From NCBI GenBank assembly GCA_036654455.1, contig JAVVRZ010000002.1:62001-126000 (forward strand): 64,000 nt of DNA, written 5' to 3'. The position numbers and the translations under genes are program-made. The stretch is from Clostridia bacterium. Its GTDB lineage: Bacteria > Bacillota > Clostridia > Christensenellales > CAG-314. Under the pieces are notes generated by a model. That model was not told the DNA's origin. It saw only the letters and a list, made by a program, of their open reading frames with translations, and ran no database searches. Positions within the stretch are counted from its first letter, which is position 1. Every line of letters starts with the position of its first letter. Below are positions 42,402 through 47,843 of this stretch, one piece after another.

Positions 42402-42445
42402 CATTTAAAAAAAGAAAGAGCGCAGAGGGGGTAAACTCTGCGCTC
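42402..42445 (-). terminator. Terminator of the 42488-43561 lipoprotein gene
   Basis: A minus-strand stem GAGCGCAGAG / CTCTGCGCTC is followed by TTTCTTTTTTT. Confidence 0.85.
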
Positions 42446-42487: not shown

Positions 42488-43561
42488 TTATTTAGCTACT
42501 TGGATAGTTTCTACAAAACCGTTGTCATAAGTAACTGTTAGTTGTTCGGCTGTTCTTACGATTGTTAGGCTACCTGTCGAACCGTTAAAGTCATAACTTA
42601 CGCTGTAAGTGTTCTCTTTGGTAAGCTCGATTTCGTACATATTAAGGGGTTCTTTGCCTTCTACTACTGCTGTGAACTCTAATTCAATGGCCTTTTCGCC
42701 TTGTTCGTTCTCCCAGCTAACATTTGTTTCATTTACAAGTTCGCCTTTTTCATAGATTGAGTAAGCAAACTCAACTTCTTCTAGCTCAACTTCTTGTTTA
42801 ACTACGATATAGTTATCAGGGTTAGCTTCGCTACGGGTTGTAAACTCAATTTCAACTTCTTTCTCTTCGCCTTCGATTGTAACTTCTTTTTCGCCGGAGA
42901 TGGTAAATACTTGGTTATTATAGATTAGTACGCCCGTAAGAGTTGTGGAAACTTCGTCTTCTTGTTCCTCTGTTTCTTCTTCCTCGTCGGCTGGCTTATC
43001 GCTTTCGTTTTCTTCTGTGTTAGCGTCAGCATTTGCAGGGTCTTTTTCAGGAACTTCTTCGGGGTTAGCGTCTGCCGCTTGCGCAGTTTCGTTATAGTAC
43101 ATAACATAAGTTACGGTTTCGCCAAGAGCGTTTGTTGTGGTTACAGTTTGTTTAATTTGGTATGTTGCATACTCGCCGTCTTCGGCTGTGGGAGCGCCTG
43201 TGGTTTGTTGAATTCCGCTAGGAGTCATATAGCCTTCAAACATTTTGATATAACGAGCTAATTCGTTAACATCTTGTGTAAAGCTAGCGGGTCTTGCAAG
43301 CTCTTGAACAGGAGCTGTTTCGGCATTAAGCACTAATCTAGGTGATAACTTAGCAAACATATTGCCGTTTGTGTTAACGCTAGCTGCGCCGGGCATATTT
43401 GATAAATACTCTACGCTTGTCATTGCTGAGAAAGCATATACCTCTTTGGATTTAACTCCGCCCTTACTTGCTATGGTCTTGCCTGTGCAAGCTGACAAAG
43501 CTGTGGTGATTAGCGCTAAGGCAAGAATCACCGTTAAAATTACACTTAATCTTTTTTTCAT
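42488..43561 (-). CDS. Acidic lipoprotein of unknown function, ECF-cluster member
   Basis: This 357-aa protein has a lipoprotein signal ending LSAC (Cys at about residue 25). A very acidic, low-complexity stretch (about 165-205, rich in Glu, Asp, Pro and Asn) is followed by a beta-rich C-terminal domain (about 205-355) of alternating short strands, such as LTGVLIYNNQVFTISG and YSVSYDFNGSTGSLTIVR. No family is recognised. GGAGG lies upstream of the ATG. Its upstream region shares an element with the ECF sigma gene at 47053-47589, so it is a likely target of that sigma factor. Confidence 0.75.
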   Translation of the reverse strand: MKKRLSVILTVILALALITTALSACTGKTIASKGGVKSKEVYAFSAMTSVEYLSNMPGAASVNTNGNMFAKLSPRLVLNAETAPVQELARPASFTQDVNELARYIKMFEGYMTPSGIQQTTGAPTAEDGEYATYQIKQTVTTTNALGETVTYVMYYNETAQAADANPEEVPEKDPANADANTEENESDKPADEEEETEEQEDEVSTTLTGVLIYNNQVFTISGEKEVTIEGEEKEVEIEFTTRSEANPDNYIVVKQEVELEEVEFAYSIYEKGELVNETNVSWENEQGEKAIELEFTAVVEGKEPLNMYEIELTKENTYSVSYDFNGSTGSLTIVRTAEQLTVTYDNGFVETIQVAK

Positions 43562-43592
43562 TTTTTTGTTCCTCCGTTTTTGTTTTACACTA

Positions 43593-43626
43593 TATATACA
43601 TTCGTACCCTTCTAATTTTCTAACAA
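43593..43626 (-). promoter_or_regulatory. Candidate ECF promoter of the lipoprotein gene
   Basis: On the minus strand TTGTTAGAAA (43626-43617) is followed, with the same spacing as at the sigma gene, by GTACGAATGTATATA. It differs from the TTGACA/TATAAT promoters elsewhere. Confidence 0.6.
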
Positions 43627-43809
43627 TTTTAACAAATACTTTAAATTATTTTAAAAAACTTTTATTATTACTATTATTTCTAATAACTGTAATTAAATGT
43701 TAGATAATACCGTGTATTTTTATTTTTTATTAGTCTAAAAGAATTAATCTAGCTTTCGTTAGCCTTTCTTCTAAACAAATTCTAGGCAATTTAGAGCTAT
43801 TTGCCACTT

Positions 43810-43846
43810 AAAAAAATTTACCCTTTACTTATTTGTAAAGGGTAAA
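43810..43846 (-). terminator. Terminator of the beta-sandwich membrane protein gene
   Basis: A minus-strand stem TTTACCCTTTAC / GTAAAGGGTAAA is followed by a T tract. Confidence 0.85.
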
Positions 43847-43919
43847 CATATTATTAATTTAACTTTAAATTGTAGCGTAACCTTTTTGACCGTATTAATT
43901 ATTGTTCTAACTTAACCTT

Positions 43920-45635
43920 TTACTGCTTTGGAGCTACGACTATTGTAATCGTCTTAGTTGCCGAATCAACAATTACCGAACTAACCTTATAGTAACCGTC
44001 TTGCCCCATTGATTCGTCTAAATATATTGAAACGTCAAACTCTGTATTAGCGCCCTCGTATAGAGTAATTGTCGTATTCTGCTCTGGCATTTCGCCGGTT
44101 GTAAAAGTAATAGATGCTTTAAATAATTGTCCGTCTTTGTTTATAAATTTAACGTATTTGCCTATCGAAGAAGTATCGCTTTCGTTAATAAAACTACCGT
44201 CTTCGAATTTAAAGATTACATTGTAGACCGCTTTTTTAGCTACGTATAAATGTAATTCTCCCTGCTTAACTTCTTCCCAAATATTTGCAACTTTATAACT
44301 ATCGCCAACTTTTGTCAAAAGAAAATCGTCGATAAACAAAGCGTCATTTTTGGGTATAGCTACGCAAAAACTGCCTAATCCTTGCAAGTCGTATTCGCAC
44401 TCGTAGGCGTATCCTTGTTTAGATACGTATACGTTTAGGCTATTTGCTTTTGTAGGGTCGTTAATTGTCCCTTTAAATACTTGCGACTCAACGGCGACTA
44501 TCATACCGCTAATACAGCTATTATAAATTTTGAAGGTATAGCCGACATCACCTACGACGGCGTAAGCTGTGATATATTGACCTTGCTCAAAATATTGCTT
44601 TTGTAAAGATGGTATGCTTAGCTTATCTTTAACTACAATCTTGTAGAAATTGCCAACTTTTTGGCTTGAAGCAGGTTGACCTTGGCACATACCAATACCA
44701 ATATAGACATAGACATCGCCTGCAATAGGTTTGCCCGAATTGTCTACAAATGTATATTCTACCGCAGTAGACTTTTTGGCGATGTATCTGCCCTTAATTA
44801 CTCGGTTGTTATCTAGCTTGTTGATAGCGTAGTACGAATCAAATTCAAAATTACCGCTACTATCTTTAACGCTTATTATTACTTGGTCTTTTGGAATTTG
44901 TAGTTTTACGCTTCCTTTATTATCAGTTTCGGCAATTTTTACAGCGTCGACATAAATGTCAAGTCCTTTCAAATTGTTGCCATTTAAATCTACCATACGT
45001 ATGGTTAGTTCAGTCTGCTTATACGTTAAGGTCGTAGTATAAAGAGTTTTATTATTATCTAATATTGTTTGTGAAGCGCCTTCGACATAGTCGTTAGGCA
45101 ATATTTCTATCTTGTCGCCTATGCTAGCGGTGACGGTTAAACCATAACTATTGCCGGCGGTATATTTATATGTTTTGTCGCCTACGGTAAAATCTACGTC
45201 GATATTTATTGGCGCATTGGTTTCGTCTACAAATCTAACTGTAATAGTATTTATTGCTTGTTCGCCTAAGGTAGCGACAACGTCTTGTTTCTGCCCCTTT
45301 TTGTTAACAAAAACCGAACTGGGGTTGAAGTTAAAGCCAAATTTTTCGTAAGTAATGGTAGCCGCCTCGTATAAATTTATTGCATATTGCCCTTGCGAGT
45401 CGGTTACGTCAACTTCCATTGTTCCATACTTCACCTTAACGCCGGGCAAACCTGCGCCATTAAAGGTTACTACGCCCGAGATGTCAATTTTATTTCCACC
45501 AGTTCCGCTGTCGCCATCGTCAACTAAGGATATTATTAAGAATGTAATGGCTGTTAGCGCAAGAATAGAGGCTATTACAATTAAGCTTATAAGTAATCCT
45601 TTTTTGTTTGTAGTTTTATAAGTTTTGTACTTCAT
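43920..45635 (-). CDS. Membrane-anchored protein with repeated beta-sandwich (carboxypeptidase-regulatory-like) domains
   Basis: This 571-aa protein has a short basic cytoplasmic N-terminus (MKYKTYKTTNKKG), one membrane helix (about 14-36) and an extracellular series of Ig-like modules. The first (about 50-85, ISGVVTFNGAGLPGVKVKYG with SQGQYAINL) matches the carboxypeptidase regulatory-like pattern. Weaker copies follow (TVRFVDETNAPINIDV, TIRMVDLNGNNLKGLDIYV, YTFVDNSGKPIAGDVYV). The start at 45635 has GGAGA upstream; a longer frame to 45653 lacks that. It lies between the RsgI-like gene and the lipoprotein on the same strand. A structural or sensing envelope role is inferred. Confidence 0.75.
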   Translation of the reverse strand: MKYKTYKTTNKKGLLISLIVIASILALTAITFLIISLVDDGDSGTGGNKIDISGVVTFNGAGLPGVKVKYGTMEVDVTDSQGQYAINLYEAATITYEKFGFNFNPSSVFVNKKGQKQDVVATLGEQAINTITVRFVDETNAPINIDVDFTVGDKTYKYTAGNSYGLTVTASIGDKIEILPNDYVEGASQTILDNNKTLYTTTLTYKQTELTIRMVDLNGNNLKGLDIYVDAVKIAETDNKGSVKLQIPKDQVIISVKDSSGNFEFDSYYAINKLDNNRVIKGRYIAKKSTAVEYTFVDNSGKPIAGDVYVYIGIGMCQGQPASSQKVGNFYKIVVKDKLSIPSLQKQYFEQGQYITAYAVVGDVGYTFKIYNSCISGMIVAVESQVFKGTINDPTKANSLNVYVSKQGYAYECEYDLQGLGSFCVAIPKNDALFIDDFLLTKVGDSYKVANIWEEVKQGELHLYVAKKAVYNVIFKFEDGSFINESDTSSIGKYVKFINKDGQLFKASITFTTGEMPEQNTTITLYEGANTEFDVSIYLDESMGQDGYYKVSSVIVDSATKTITIVVAPKQ

Positions 45636-45799
45636 AGTTATCTCCGTCCACAATATTTAATTAATATTTGTATATTCTTATGTAATTAATATAATTATAA
45701 CACATTTTGAAATCTCTGCAAGTTTTATCTATTAATTTTTAATCGTTTAAAAGATAATTTAGCGTAAATAGTTATTTTTTTGTCCTATAAATTACAAAA

Positions 45800-45823
45800 A
45801 ACACTCAAATTGCGTTGAGTGTT
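45800..45823 (-). terminator. Terminator of the sigma/anti-sigma operon
   Basis: A minus-strand stem AACACTCAA / TTGAGTGTT is followed by TTTTTT. Confidence 0.8.
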
Positions 45824-45908
45824 AAAATTTCGATATAATAAGACATATTTTTAGAACAAAGTTTAATTCTAGTAACAGTAGTGCGCTTCAACTTATGTAA
45901 CTTAGAGT

Positions 45909-47063
45909 CTATTCGTCGGTAGGCGGATTGTCGGGATTATCGGGGTTATCTGGATTATCGGGGTTATCGGTAGGATTATCTGGGTTGTCGGTAGGGTTGT
46001 CGGTTGGGTTATCGGGATTGTCGGTAGGGTTATCAGGGTTATCGGTAGGCTTGTCCTCAGTGCTAGTGTCTTCTTCGGGGTTTTCGTCTTGATTGCTCCC
46101 GTCCTTATCAAGTAAGTCTTCGGAAGCAATTTCAAACAAATCTTCTAATTTATCTTTATAATCTTCTTCTGTTTTTGACCCGTCAATTAATTCGGCTTGA
46201 ATTTTTTCCAGGTCTACAAGCTGTTCGTCAATTTTTGTAGCTAACTCGTCAAGCTTATCGGCAAGTTCTTCTTTATCAGTGGTGTCAAGTTCGGTTGTAT
46301 CAAAGTCAAGTTTGTATTTAAATACCGCTAAGGTTTCTTTAAGTTCATTTAAGGTAATTTTACCCTCTTTGCAACCTGTTACTTTGTTTGAAAGATTGGT
46401 TAATTCGTCAATCTTTGTTTTTAAGCCGTTTTTAATTTTTAGTTCAAAGTCTTTGATAAGTTGCGTTTGATATTCGTTTAATTTTTTCTCGTCTAGTTGG
46501 TCGAGCAACGTTTCTATTTCGTCCTCGCTTAAAGATAGAACGTCGGCGTTAGCGATATTTGCTTGTTGTAGCGCCGACATAACATCGGCAAGTATACCTG
46601 TATAGACGCTTTCTTGGGTTTTTTTGTCCTTGCTAACAACCCCTAACTTTAACTGTCCGTTATCTTTAAGATAGCCTAACTTCTTGGCTCGCTCGATTAC
46701 AATTTTTGTAGCTTCCTTAATATCCTTGCCCACGAGATTGTTGTTAAGTAGCAGTTTGACGCCGTCTTCGTTTAAGGCTTGTTGAGCCGTAACAATGTTA
46801 TCCTTATTTACTTCGAGCTGTACGCGAGGGTTGATAGACATTGTAACGCAATATGCTTGGCTAGTTACGCTTGGCAGGAATACGGTAAGCGACACAATCA
46901 AGAGTATTACCGCAAGGGCTGAGGCAAATGTCATTTTAAACACAAGCGGACGCTTACTCTTTTTTGCATTCTGCCAGTTGACGCTACTAAGAATATATTG
47001 CTTATCGACTTTAATTTTGCTGTCTAACTCTTGATTAATAGCGTGTTTATATTTATCTTTCAT
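45909..47063 (-). CDS. RsgI-like membrane anti-sigma factor
   Basis: This 384-aa single-pass protein has a cytoplasmic N-terminus (about 1-40) expected to bind the sigma factor and a membrane helix (about 43-63). Just outside follows the RsgI-type middle domain CVTMSINPRVQLEVNKDN...ALNEDGVKLL. A helical region comes next (about 150-320), then a Pro/Asp/Asn tail of repeated TDNPDNP (about 335-384). The start at 47063 has AAGGAGG just upstream and overlaps the sigma gene by 11 bp; the frame extends to 47156 but only inside the sigma gene. It probably holds the ECF sigma at the membrane until an envelope signal releases it. Confidence 0.82.
   Translation of the reverse strand: MKDKYKHAINQELDSKIKVDKQYILSSVNWQNAKKSKRPLVFKMTFASALAVILLIVSLTVFLPSVTSQAYCVTMSINPRVQLEVNKDNIVTAQQALNEDGVKLLLNNNLVGKDIKEATKIVIERAKKLGYLKDNGQLKLGVVSKDKKTQESVYTGILADVMSALQQANIANADVLSLSEDEIETLLDQLDEKKLNEYQTQLIKDFELKIKNGLKTKIDELTNLSNKVTGCKEGKITLNELKETLAVFKYKLDFDTTELDTTDKEELADKLDELATKIDEQLVDLEKIQAELIDGSKTEEDYKDKLEDLFEIASEDLLDKDGSNQDENPEEDTSTEDKPTDNPDNPTDNPDNPTDNPTDNPDNPTDNPDNPDNPDNPDNPPTDE
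45915..46060. repeat. Pro-Asp-Asn coding repeat in the RsgI-like gene
   Basis: Short imperfect repeats (TTATCGGGGTTATCTGG-like units) encode (T)DNPDNP about a dozen times. Such tracts readily change copy number. Confidence 0.75.
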
Positions 47064-47589
47064 CGTACACCTCCTTGTAATAGTGTTTAACTTTTTCGAT
47101 GGCTTTATTATATTGCCAGTAAATTGTGGCAAGAGGCTTACCCAGCATATTGGCAATTTCGGTTCTATTGTAACCTTGTATTACAGCAAGCTCGATTAAC
47201 TGCCATTCCTCAGCCGGCATCTTCTCCTTGCATAATAGTAGTAGAGGCGTGTCTATGCTATCAAATATAGTAGGAGCTTCGGCAGATAGAAATTCTTCAT
47301 TCTCGATGCTTGCGGTAAATCTACGTTGATTATATACGTTAATTGCTTTGTTGCGAGCAATCGTAAGTAGATATGCGTGAAAATTTTTATCGCAATCTAG
47401 GCTAATAAGGTTGTTGAGGAAAGTTATGTAAGTTTCTTGCATAACGTCGTTAGCTTCCTCTTGATTTTTAAGTACGCTAAAAGTAATGTAAAACACAGCA
47501 TTTTTCGTCAATTCAAAGAATTCGTCAAAATACTGTTGCTTACCTTTTTTTAGCTCCTTAACGCAACGGTTTAGTCTTATGTTGTCCAT
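47053..47589 (-). CDS. ECF-family RNA polymerase sigma factor
   Basis: This 178-aa sigma-70-like factor has region 2 (about 15-80, with EEANDVMQETYITFLNNL) and region 4 (about 115-170, AEEWQLIELAVIQGYNRTEIANMLGKPLATIYWQYNKAIEK) and no region 3, as in extracytoplasmic-function sigmas. The start at 47589 (MDNIRLNRC) gives the usual length; a TTG frame to 47640 would run through the candidate promoter. It overlaps the RsgI-like anti-sigma gene by 11 bp, so the two are coupled. The upstream element (47607-47640) is shared with the downstream lipoprotein gene and suggests autoregulation. Confidence 0.88.
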   Translation of the reverse strand: MDNIRLNRCVKELKKGKQQYFDEFFELTKNAVFYITFSVLKNQEEANDVMQETYITFLNNLISLDCDKNFHAYLLTIARNKAINVYNQRRFTASIENEEFLSAEAPTIFDSIDTPLLLLCKEKMPAEEWQLIELAVIQGYNRTEIANMLGKPLATIYWQYNKAIEKVKHYYKEVYDER

Positions 47590-47606: not shown

Positions 47607-47640
47607 TATATACAATTATACTAGCTCGAATTTCTAACAA
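47607..47640 (-). promoter_or_regulatory. Candidate autoregulated promoter of the ECF sigma gene
   Basis: Minus strand: TTGTTAGAAA (47640-47631), then at the same distance as in the lipoprotein promoter GTATAATTGTATATA. The 34-bp windows match at 23 positions without gaps. Confidence 0.6.
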
Positions 47641-47728: not shown

Positions 47729-47767
47729 TAAAAAAATAGATACGCAATTATTCTAGCGTATCTATTT
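47729..47767 (-). terminator. Terminator of tRNA-Arg
   Basis: A minus-strand 12-bp stem AAATAGATACGC / GCGTATCTATTT is followed by TTTTTT. The stem begins at the last base of the encoded CCA. Confidence 0.85.
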
Positions 47768-47843
47768 GGCGAACCATAGAGGATTCGAACCTCCGACCTT
47801 TGCGTCCGTAGCGCAACGCTCTATCCAGCTGAGCTAATGGTCC
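47767..47843 (-). tRNA. tRNA-Arg (anticodon ACG)
   Basis: The 77-nt cloverleaf on the minus strand has acceptor GGACCAT paired with ATGGTTC, D-arm TAGCTCAGCTGGATAGAGC, anticodon stem TTGCG/CGCAA with loop CTACGGA (anticodon ACG, presumably deaminated to ICG), T-arm with GGTTCGAATCC, discriminator G and encoded CCA. It has its own promoter (47921-47949) and terminator. Confidence 0.95.

Follow-up and report, generated by a model that had tools for sequence, protein, structure and literature searches.

A candidate autoregulated ECF switch in a Clostridia genome, with an RsgI-type anti-sigma factor and a sensor-related lipoprotein

The window we have analyzed is the whole stretch of 64,000 nucleotides from a Clostridia bacterium (Christensenellales, CAG-314; contig JAVVRZ010000002.1, positions 62,001 to 126,000). 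Between positions 47589 and 42488 of this window, four open reading frames (ORFs) follow each other in order on the minus strand, as shown in Table 1. They code for an extracytoplasmic function (ECF) sigma factor, an anti-sigma factor with the RsgI_M domain (SEAL), a beta-sandwich membrane protein and an acidic lipoprotein. In our reading, to which we assign a probability of about 0.65, the sigma and anti-sigma genes form an ECF switch that regulates itself and whose RsgI-type anti-sigma factor is self-cleaving, and the main target of this switch is the lipoprotein, which belongs to a family also used as a sensor.

Table 1. Features of the locus, in window positions.
Feature	Position	Strand	Basis or remark
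Candidate ECF promoter for the sigma and anti-sigma genes, TTGTTAGAAA-N16-TGTATATA	47607..47640	(-)	exact, 17 nt ahead of the start codon of the sigma gene
ECF sigma factor gene, 178 aa	47053..47589	(-)	Sigma70_r2 E 2.3e-11 and TIGR02937 E 8e-19, each above cut-off; ATG 47589, stop 47053, ORF call upheld
RsgI_M/SEAL anti-sigma factor, 384 aa	45909..47063	(-)	PF23750 and fold matches; ATG 47063, stop 45909
Codons of Asn78-Pro79, predicted self-cleavage bond	46827..46832	(-)	alignment to autocleaved RsgI chains
Repetitive tail of the anti-sigma factor, acidic and rich in PDN	45909..46076	(-)	tandem repeats
Terminator-like hairpin closing the sigma/anti-sigma unit	45800..45823	(-)	
Beta-sandwich membrane protein, probably a passenger	43920..45635	(-)	conservation and hairpins; ATG 45635, end 43920
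Terminator-like hairpin downstream of the beta-sandwich gene	43847-43816	(-)	
Putative ECF promoter of the lipoprotein gene, TTGTTAGAAA-N16-TGTATATA	43593..43626	(-)	exact, 31 nt before the ATG
Acidic lipoprotein, 357 aa	42488..43561	(-)	lipobox ..ALSAC; homologues adjoin ECF sigma/anti-sigma genes; ATG 43561, stop 42488
Terminator-like hairpin 3' of the lipoprotein gene	42418..42445	(-)	

The sigma factor matches the sigma70-ECF profile (TIGR02937) and Sigma70_r2; region-4 models stay below their cut-offs (Sigma70_r4 E 2.5e-4). With these matches and its short length, it agrees with the description of ECF factors as short proteins with regions 2 and 4 only. It is the sole match of its ECF group in its own genome at E<=1e-8, and 0 to 6 genes of this group are found per genome in the 22 genomes searched. 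A first scan of the genome contigs with the sigma factor found none, and a plasmid search gave 0 matches. A tRNA-Arg(acg) gene (47767-47843) immediately precedes the sigma gene and has the same orientation.

The start of the anti-sigma gene overlaps the end of the sigma gene, and a ribosome-binding site (aaggag) lies upstream of it. The protein has a short cytoplasmic helical segment, a transmembrane helix at about residues 43-60, the SEAL domain (69-173), a helical region and a tail rich in Pro-Asp-Asn (PDN). RsgI_M (PF23750) matches residues 73-184 with E 1.5e-17, and no other Pfam model is above cut-off. A fold search with the structural model gives RsgI proteins at ranks 1 to 6 (Z 14.5 to 9.5). 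The top match is B. subtilis RsgI, with Z 14.5 and a root-mean-square deviation of 2.1 over 102 residues. In the N-terminal segment, helices are modelled with low confidence at residues 2-16 and 21-27; class II (CnrY-like) anti-sigma domains are segments of two helices that bind sigma 4 and sigma 2. Five solved RsgI chains that have undergone autocleavage (8u9o_B, 8her_B, 8hep_B, 8heq_B and 8hdj_B) have their first residue, a proline, aligned to Pro79, and in 16 aligned anti-sigma factors Asn78 is invariant and Pro79 nearly invariant. Since the site is conserved in this way and the fold is that of RsgI, we infer that the protein cuts itself as RsgI does.

An RsgI_M domain and six best fold matches which are all RsgI might suggest an ordinary SigI/RsgI system that has been mis-typed. 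Two facts refute this: the sigma factor matches the ECF profile, and the genome has no full-length SigI, its best match having E 9.6e-8. RsgI_N is also absent, with 0 matches in the genome and none in the Pfam scan of the anti-sigma factor. We consider mis-typing extremely improbable. The earlier note on this DNA had proposed an ECF sigma factor paired with an RsgI-domain anti-sigma factor instead of SigI/RsgI, and PF23750, the ECF profile and the lack of RsgI_N bear this out. The helical region and the PDN-rich tail that it described are also real: helices are modelled within residues 192-293, and the tail is a true tandem repeat at the DNA level.

Pairs of an ECF factor with an RsgI_M anti-sigma factor are frequent in the order of the window and occur throughout Clostridia, so the window is no special case in this respect. 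In 29 RsgI_M anti-sigma loci of relatives, the partner is an ECF factor in 15 and SigI in four; the other ten have none in a short flank, and longer flanks reveal an ECF gene in five of these ten. SigI matches at E<=1.2e-32 are found in 13 of 151 genomes of the order. We have also studied 50 loci from the whole class, 30 of them mostly the strongest matches and 20 picked lower in the list. An ECF-like sigma factor is found in 14 (several of them with low scores on the ECF profile), SigI in 33 and neither of the two in three. In our literature search we recognised no description of RsgI_M anti-sigma factors with ECF partners, and we do not claim that none is in print. Two RsgI_M anti-sigma factors (L166 and L167, in genomes G554 and G477) lie beside a sigma factor which scores poorly with both ECF and SigI profiles and may represent yet another sigma type that works with SEAL. 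The genome of the window has a second RsgI_M protein, lipoprotein-like and with no adjoining sigma gene (contig C3, 93796 onwards; locus L033, 7797-8999). Its gene has a sigma-A-like promoter, as judged by eye, and none of the ECF-element sites. It may be a free version of the sensor domain, encoded away from the sigma gene.

The lipoprotein is strongly acidic, with 64 Asp/Glu and 22 Lys/Arg in the mature protein. With E<=1e-3 as threshold, a profile search matches 108 of the 297 genomes in the order, often through the signal peptide only; loci were taken from the stronger, mostly full-length matches. This gives 61 loci, the window excluded: 57 plus four more, with L034 coming from an earlier search. 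ECF sigma and anti-sigma genes adjoin the lipoprotein homologue in 47 of the 61, 22 with a SEAL-type anti-sigma factor and 25 with an anti-sigma factor which contains the lipoprotein domain itself. For this reason we regard the lipoprotein as the real partner of the system. The named relatives found are uncultured Clostridia, one of them known as Candidatus Caccovivens faecavium. The lipoprotein was not found in other orders of the class: only two of 341 genomes matched, and both belong to the order of the window. A strongly acidic character is common to all 51 members measured (net charge from -58 to -19, median -44), which suggests binding of cations or cationic peptides. No Pfam or NCBIfam model fits the family (24 members scanned). 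An identity with FlgH was rejected, the Pfam match being weak, below cut-off and limited to one of the 24. We have also discarded the possibility of a divergent SEAL domain: hhalign of the two profiles gives a probability of 4.9 over 11 columns. Foldseek finds no significant match for the lipoprotein fold (best E 0.029), and fold comparison leads only to assorted beta-barrels (Z up to 8.4), so we make no claim about its fold.

A putative promoter element connects the two units. The exact pattern is found only twice in the 1.37 Mb genome, before the sigma gene and before the lipoprotein gene; with up to three mismatches there are 14 sites, these two included, and eight for the reversed control pattern. 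In relatives, we have trained a motif solely on 50 sigma upstream regions, that of the window among them, and compared it with 250 control upstream regions. The lipoprotein upstream regions exceed the 95th percentile of the controls in 36 of 45 cases, with an area under the curve of 0.90 and a p-value of 3e-18, which is optimistic since the sequences are related. This independent test carries more weight than the pair of sites in the window. In the eight loci with a secreted SEAL-domain protein (see below), a bipartite element in common with the sigma gene scores at least 18 in four; in others, similar elements can be made out only by eye. An ungapped identity test over 36 bases of the upstream regions gave no information in this AT-rich DNA. 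It is because of the element shared in the window and of the motif test in relatives that we propose the lipoprotein as a target of the sigma factor. The same putative element suggests that the sigma factor directs its own operon.

The anti-sigma factors found in lipoprotein loci are of two types. SEAL is present in all 23 proteins of one type (22 loci), and the lipoprotein-family domain in all 25 of the other type (25 loci), as an ectodomain which replaces SEAL. None of the 48 has both. The two types have a related cytoplasmic segment at the N-terminus: of 24 lipoprotein-domain anti-sigma factors, 23 match a profile of the SEAL set at E<=1e-4, a level reached by none of 2400 shuffled sequences, although the training set of this profile included L142, a locus of the lipoprotein-domain type. 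A tree of 63 sigma factors requires at least six changes of ectodomain, two of them forced by well-supported branches. In 24 of the 25 loci with a lipoprotein-domain anti-sigma factor, another member of the family is encoded next to it as a protein of its own. Eight of 15 ECF/SEAL loci which lack the lipoprotein encode a further SEAL-domain protein, whose N-terminus is of the signal-peptide or lipoprotein type (two of the eight were checked against Pfam). As judged from their domains, three combinations of sensor and secreted protein are found: RsgI with RsgI, lipoprotein domain with lipoprotein, and RsgI with lipoprotein, as in the window. One ECF-partnered SEAL anti-sigma factor (L043:7974-9461) has a C-terminal part which, by eye, resembles repeated PepSY-type units, a sensor tail of another kind.

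The switch would work as follows. The anti-sigma factor would hold the ECF sigma factor by its short segment in the cytoplasm, at the N-terminus. Outside the cell, SEAL would cut itself between Asn78 and Pro79, as the conserved site and the fold suggest, its halves staying together through their beta-sheet. If the analogy with RsgI holds, an envelope signal would part these halves, perhaps by a pull on the helical ectodomain and the acidic tail, and a site-2 protease of the genome would then clear the stub and release the sigma factor. Candidates for this protease are found in the genome (Peptidase_M50, best E 1.5e-59). For RsgI itself, a passage in PMC12203970 describes self-cleavage followed by RseP and ClpXP. 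The freed sigma factor would transcribe its own operon and, from the matching promoter 4 kb away, the lipoprotein gene. The lipoprotein may in turn have its ligand or partner in common with the sensors and so weaken or adjust the signal. We propose such feedback because the family also serves as the ectodomain of sister anti-sigma factors, tentatively and with the odds against it. Extended to the whole order, a free membrane-anchored copy or substitute of the sensor, controlled by the sigma factor, might compete for the ligand or bind the sensor as feedback, the sensors having been swapped repeatedly while the end that binds the sigma factor was conserved. This general design is conceivable and rather doubtful.

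Several observations weigh against the proposed switch, besides the optimistic p-values. The structural model of the anti-sigma factor has low confidence (mean predicted local distance difference test, pLDDT, 53), and its N-terminal segment matches the shared profile weakly (E 0.05). The pair of promoters in the window is, taken alone, only moderately unusual, since three of 527 control pairs and five of 1500 shuffles reach it. With the family motif, the lipoprotein promoter of the window scores 3.2, and the control threshold is 8.6: the -35 element is apparently another one in this lineage. No sigma gene is found near 14 of the 61 lipoprotein loci, some of which are at contig ends. Five genomes (G183, G225, G260, G047 and G076) contain the lipoprotein and no such ECF sigma factor at E<=1e-8, so the lipoprotein has a role outside the switch.

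This persistence favours a function of its own and keeps alive another explanation. The lipoprotein would be a purely protective output of the regulon, such as a sponge at the surface that takes up cations or cationic peptides. It would have no effect on the switch, and would resemble some of the sensors through domain recruitment only. The acidity of the family and the sigma-type promoter before the gene agree with this. On the other hand, the separate same-family proteins beside nearly all lipoprotein-domain anti-sigma factors, and the secreted RsgI-domain proteins beside the RsgI-domain ones in eight of the 15 loci without the lipoprotein, are unexpected for a mere effector. We give this explanation a little less than even odds.

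The earlier note had grouped the four genes in a single envelope-sensing cluster, which can be read as an operon with the PDN tail as a sensor that contacts the lipoprotein. Envelope sensing is probably right, and the lipoprotein does belong to the system, as its linkage to sigma pairs in relatives indicates. The common strand and order of the ORFs and the predicted disorder of the tail (residues 294-384, pLDDT <50) are consistent with this arrangement. Nevertheless, three terminator-like hairpins, one after each unit, would split the region into three units; the whole stretch has six such hairpins and shuffles give 4.9, so there is no excess. The beta-sandwich gene, with hairpins on both sides, is not conserved: among 101 genomes it matches only three, its own at full length and two weakly and partially, which led us to reject it as a member of the system. 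Thus the co-occurrence suggested for all four genes in relatives holds for the sigma factor, the anti-sigma factor and the lipoprotein, and fails for this gene. As for the tail, the four closest relatives aligned have RsgI_M and the helical region and lack the PDN repeats, while they retain the sigma factor, anti-sigma factor and lipoprotein, and we have discarded the tail as a conserved sensor. The sequence comparison largely refutes the four-gene operon, which we consider very unlikely.

The beta-sandwich protein is probably a passenger outside the system. CarbopepD_reg_2 matches it weakly, below cut-off. A paralogue with 42% identity, the only full-length relative found in the 101 genomes, lies in the same genome (contig C5, 23681-25390; locus L144), with a surface-type protein of 1710 aa on one side and, on the other, a prepilin-like ORF of 738 aa that starts with GFTLVELLIVIVIIGILAG. 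Acidic low-complexity tails recur in other SEAL anti-sigma factors, although not as PDN repeats: L041:6978-8339 and L115:4274-5248 have aspartate-rich ones. No carbohydrate-binding or enzyme module was found by Pfam in the C-terminal part of the anti-sigma factor. B. subtilis RsgI also lacks such a module, so it is not a strict requirement of RsgI proteins.

The self-cleaving RsgI sensor thus appears to be a portable module, found with two unrelated anti-sigma ends and two kinds of sigma factor. The lipoprotein family, which has no Pfam or NCBIfam model and in our searches is found only in this order, would be its likely main output here and a possible feedback element. A portable sensor linked to a lipoprotein makes models of mechanical or ligand-based sensing testable.

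Several known systems are comparable. In RsiV/SigV, RsiP/SigP and similar systems of Bacillus, a membrane anti-sigma factor also senses the outside, and regulated intramembrane proteolysis follows. Their site-1 step needs a protease, while the anti-sigma factor of the window is predicted to cut itself, and we know of no sigma-controlled homologue of the ectodomain in them. ECF factors with class I or class II (short, CnrY-like) anti-sigma factors share with the window the overlapping anti-sigma gene and a single transmembrane helix. Class II also shares an N-terminal segment of less than 50 residues, following a class description in PMC7406223. The difference is the ectodomain, in our case a predicted autocleaving SEAL domain. 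The SigI/RsgI systems of Bacillus subtilis and Clostridium thermocellum have the same periplasmic RsgI_M (SEAL) domain with an Asn-Pro site, one transmembrane helix, a sensory C-terminal part and an anti-sigma gene directly after the sigma gene. A passage of PMC10128001 describes a disordered region in B. subtilis RsgI too, and by analogy a disordered tail is not new. In the window, however, the partner is an ECF factor, a short helical N-terminal segment takes the place of RsgI_N, no carbohydrate-binding module is detected by Pfam, and a lipoprotein gene with a matching promoter is added to the system.

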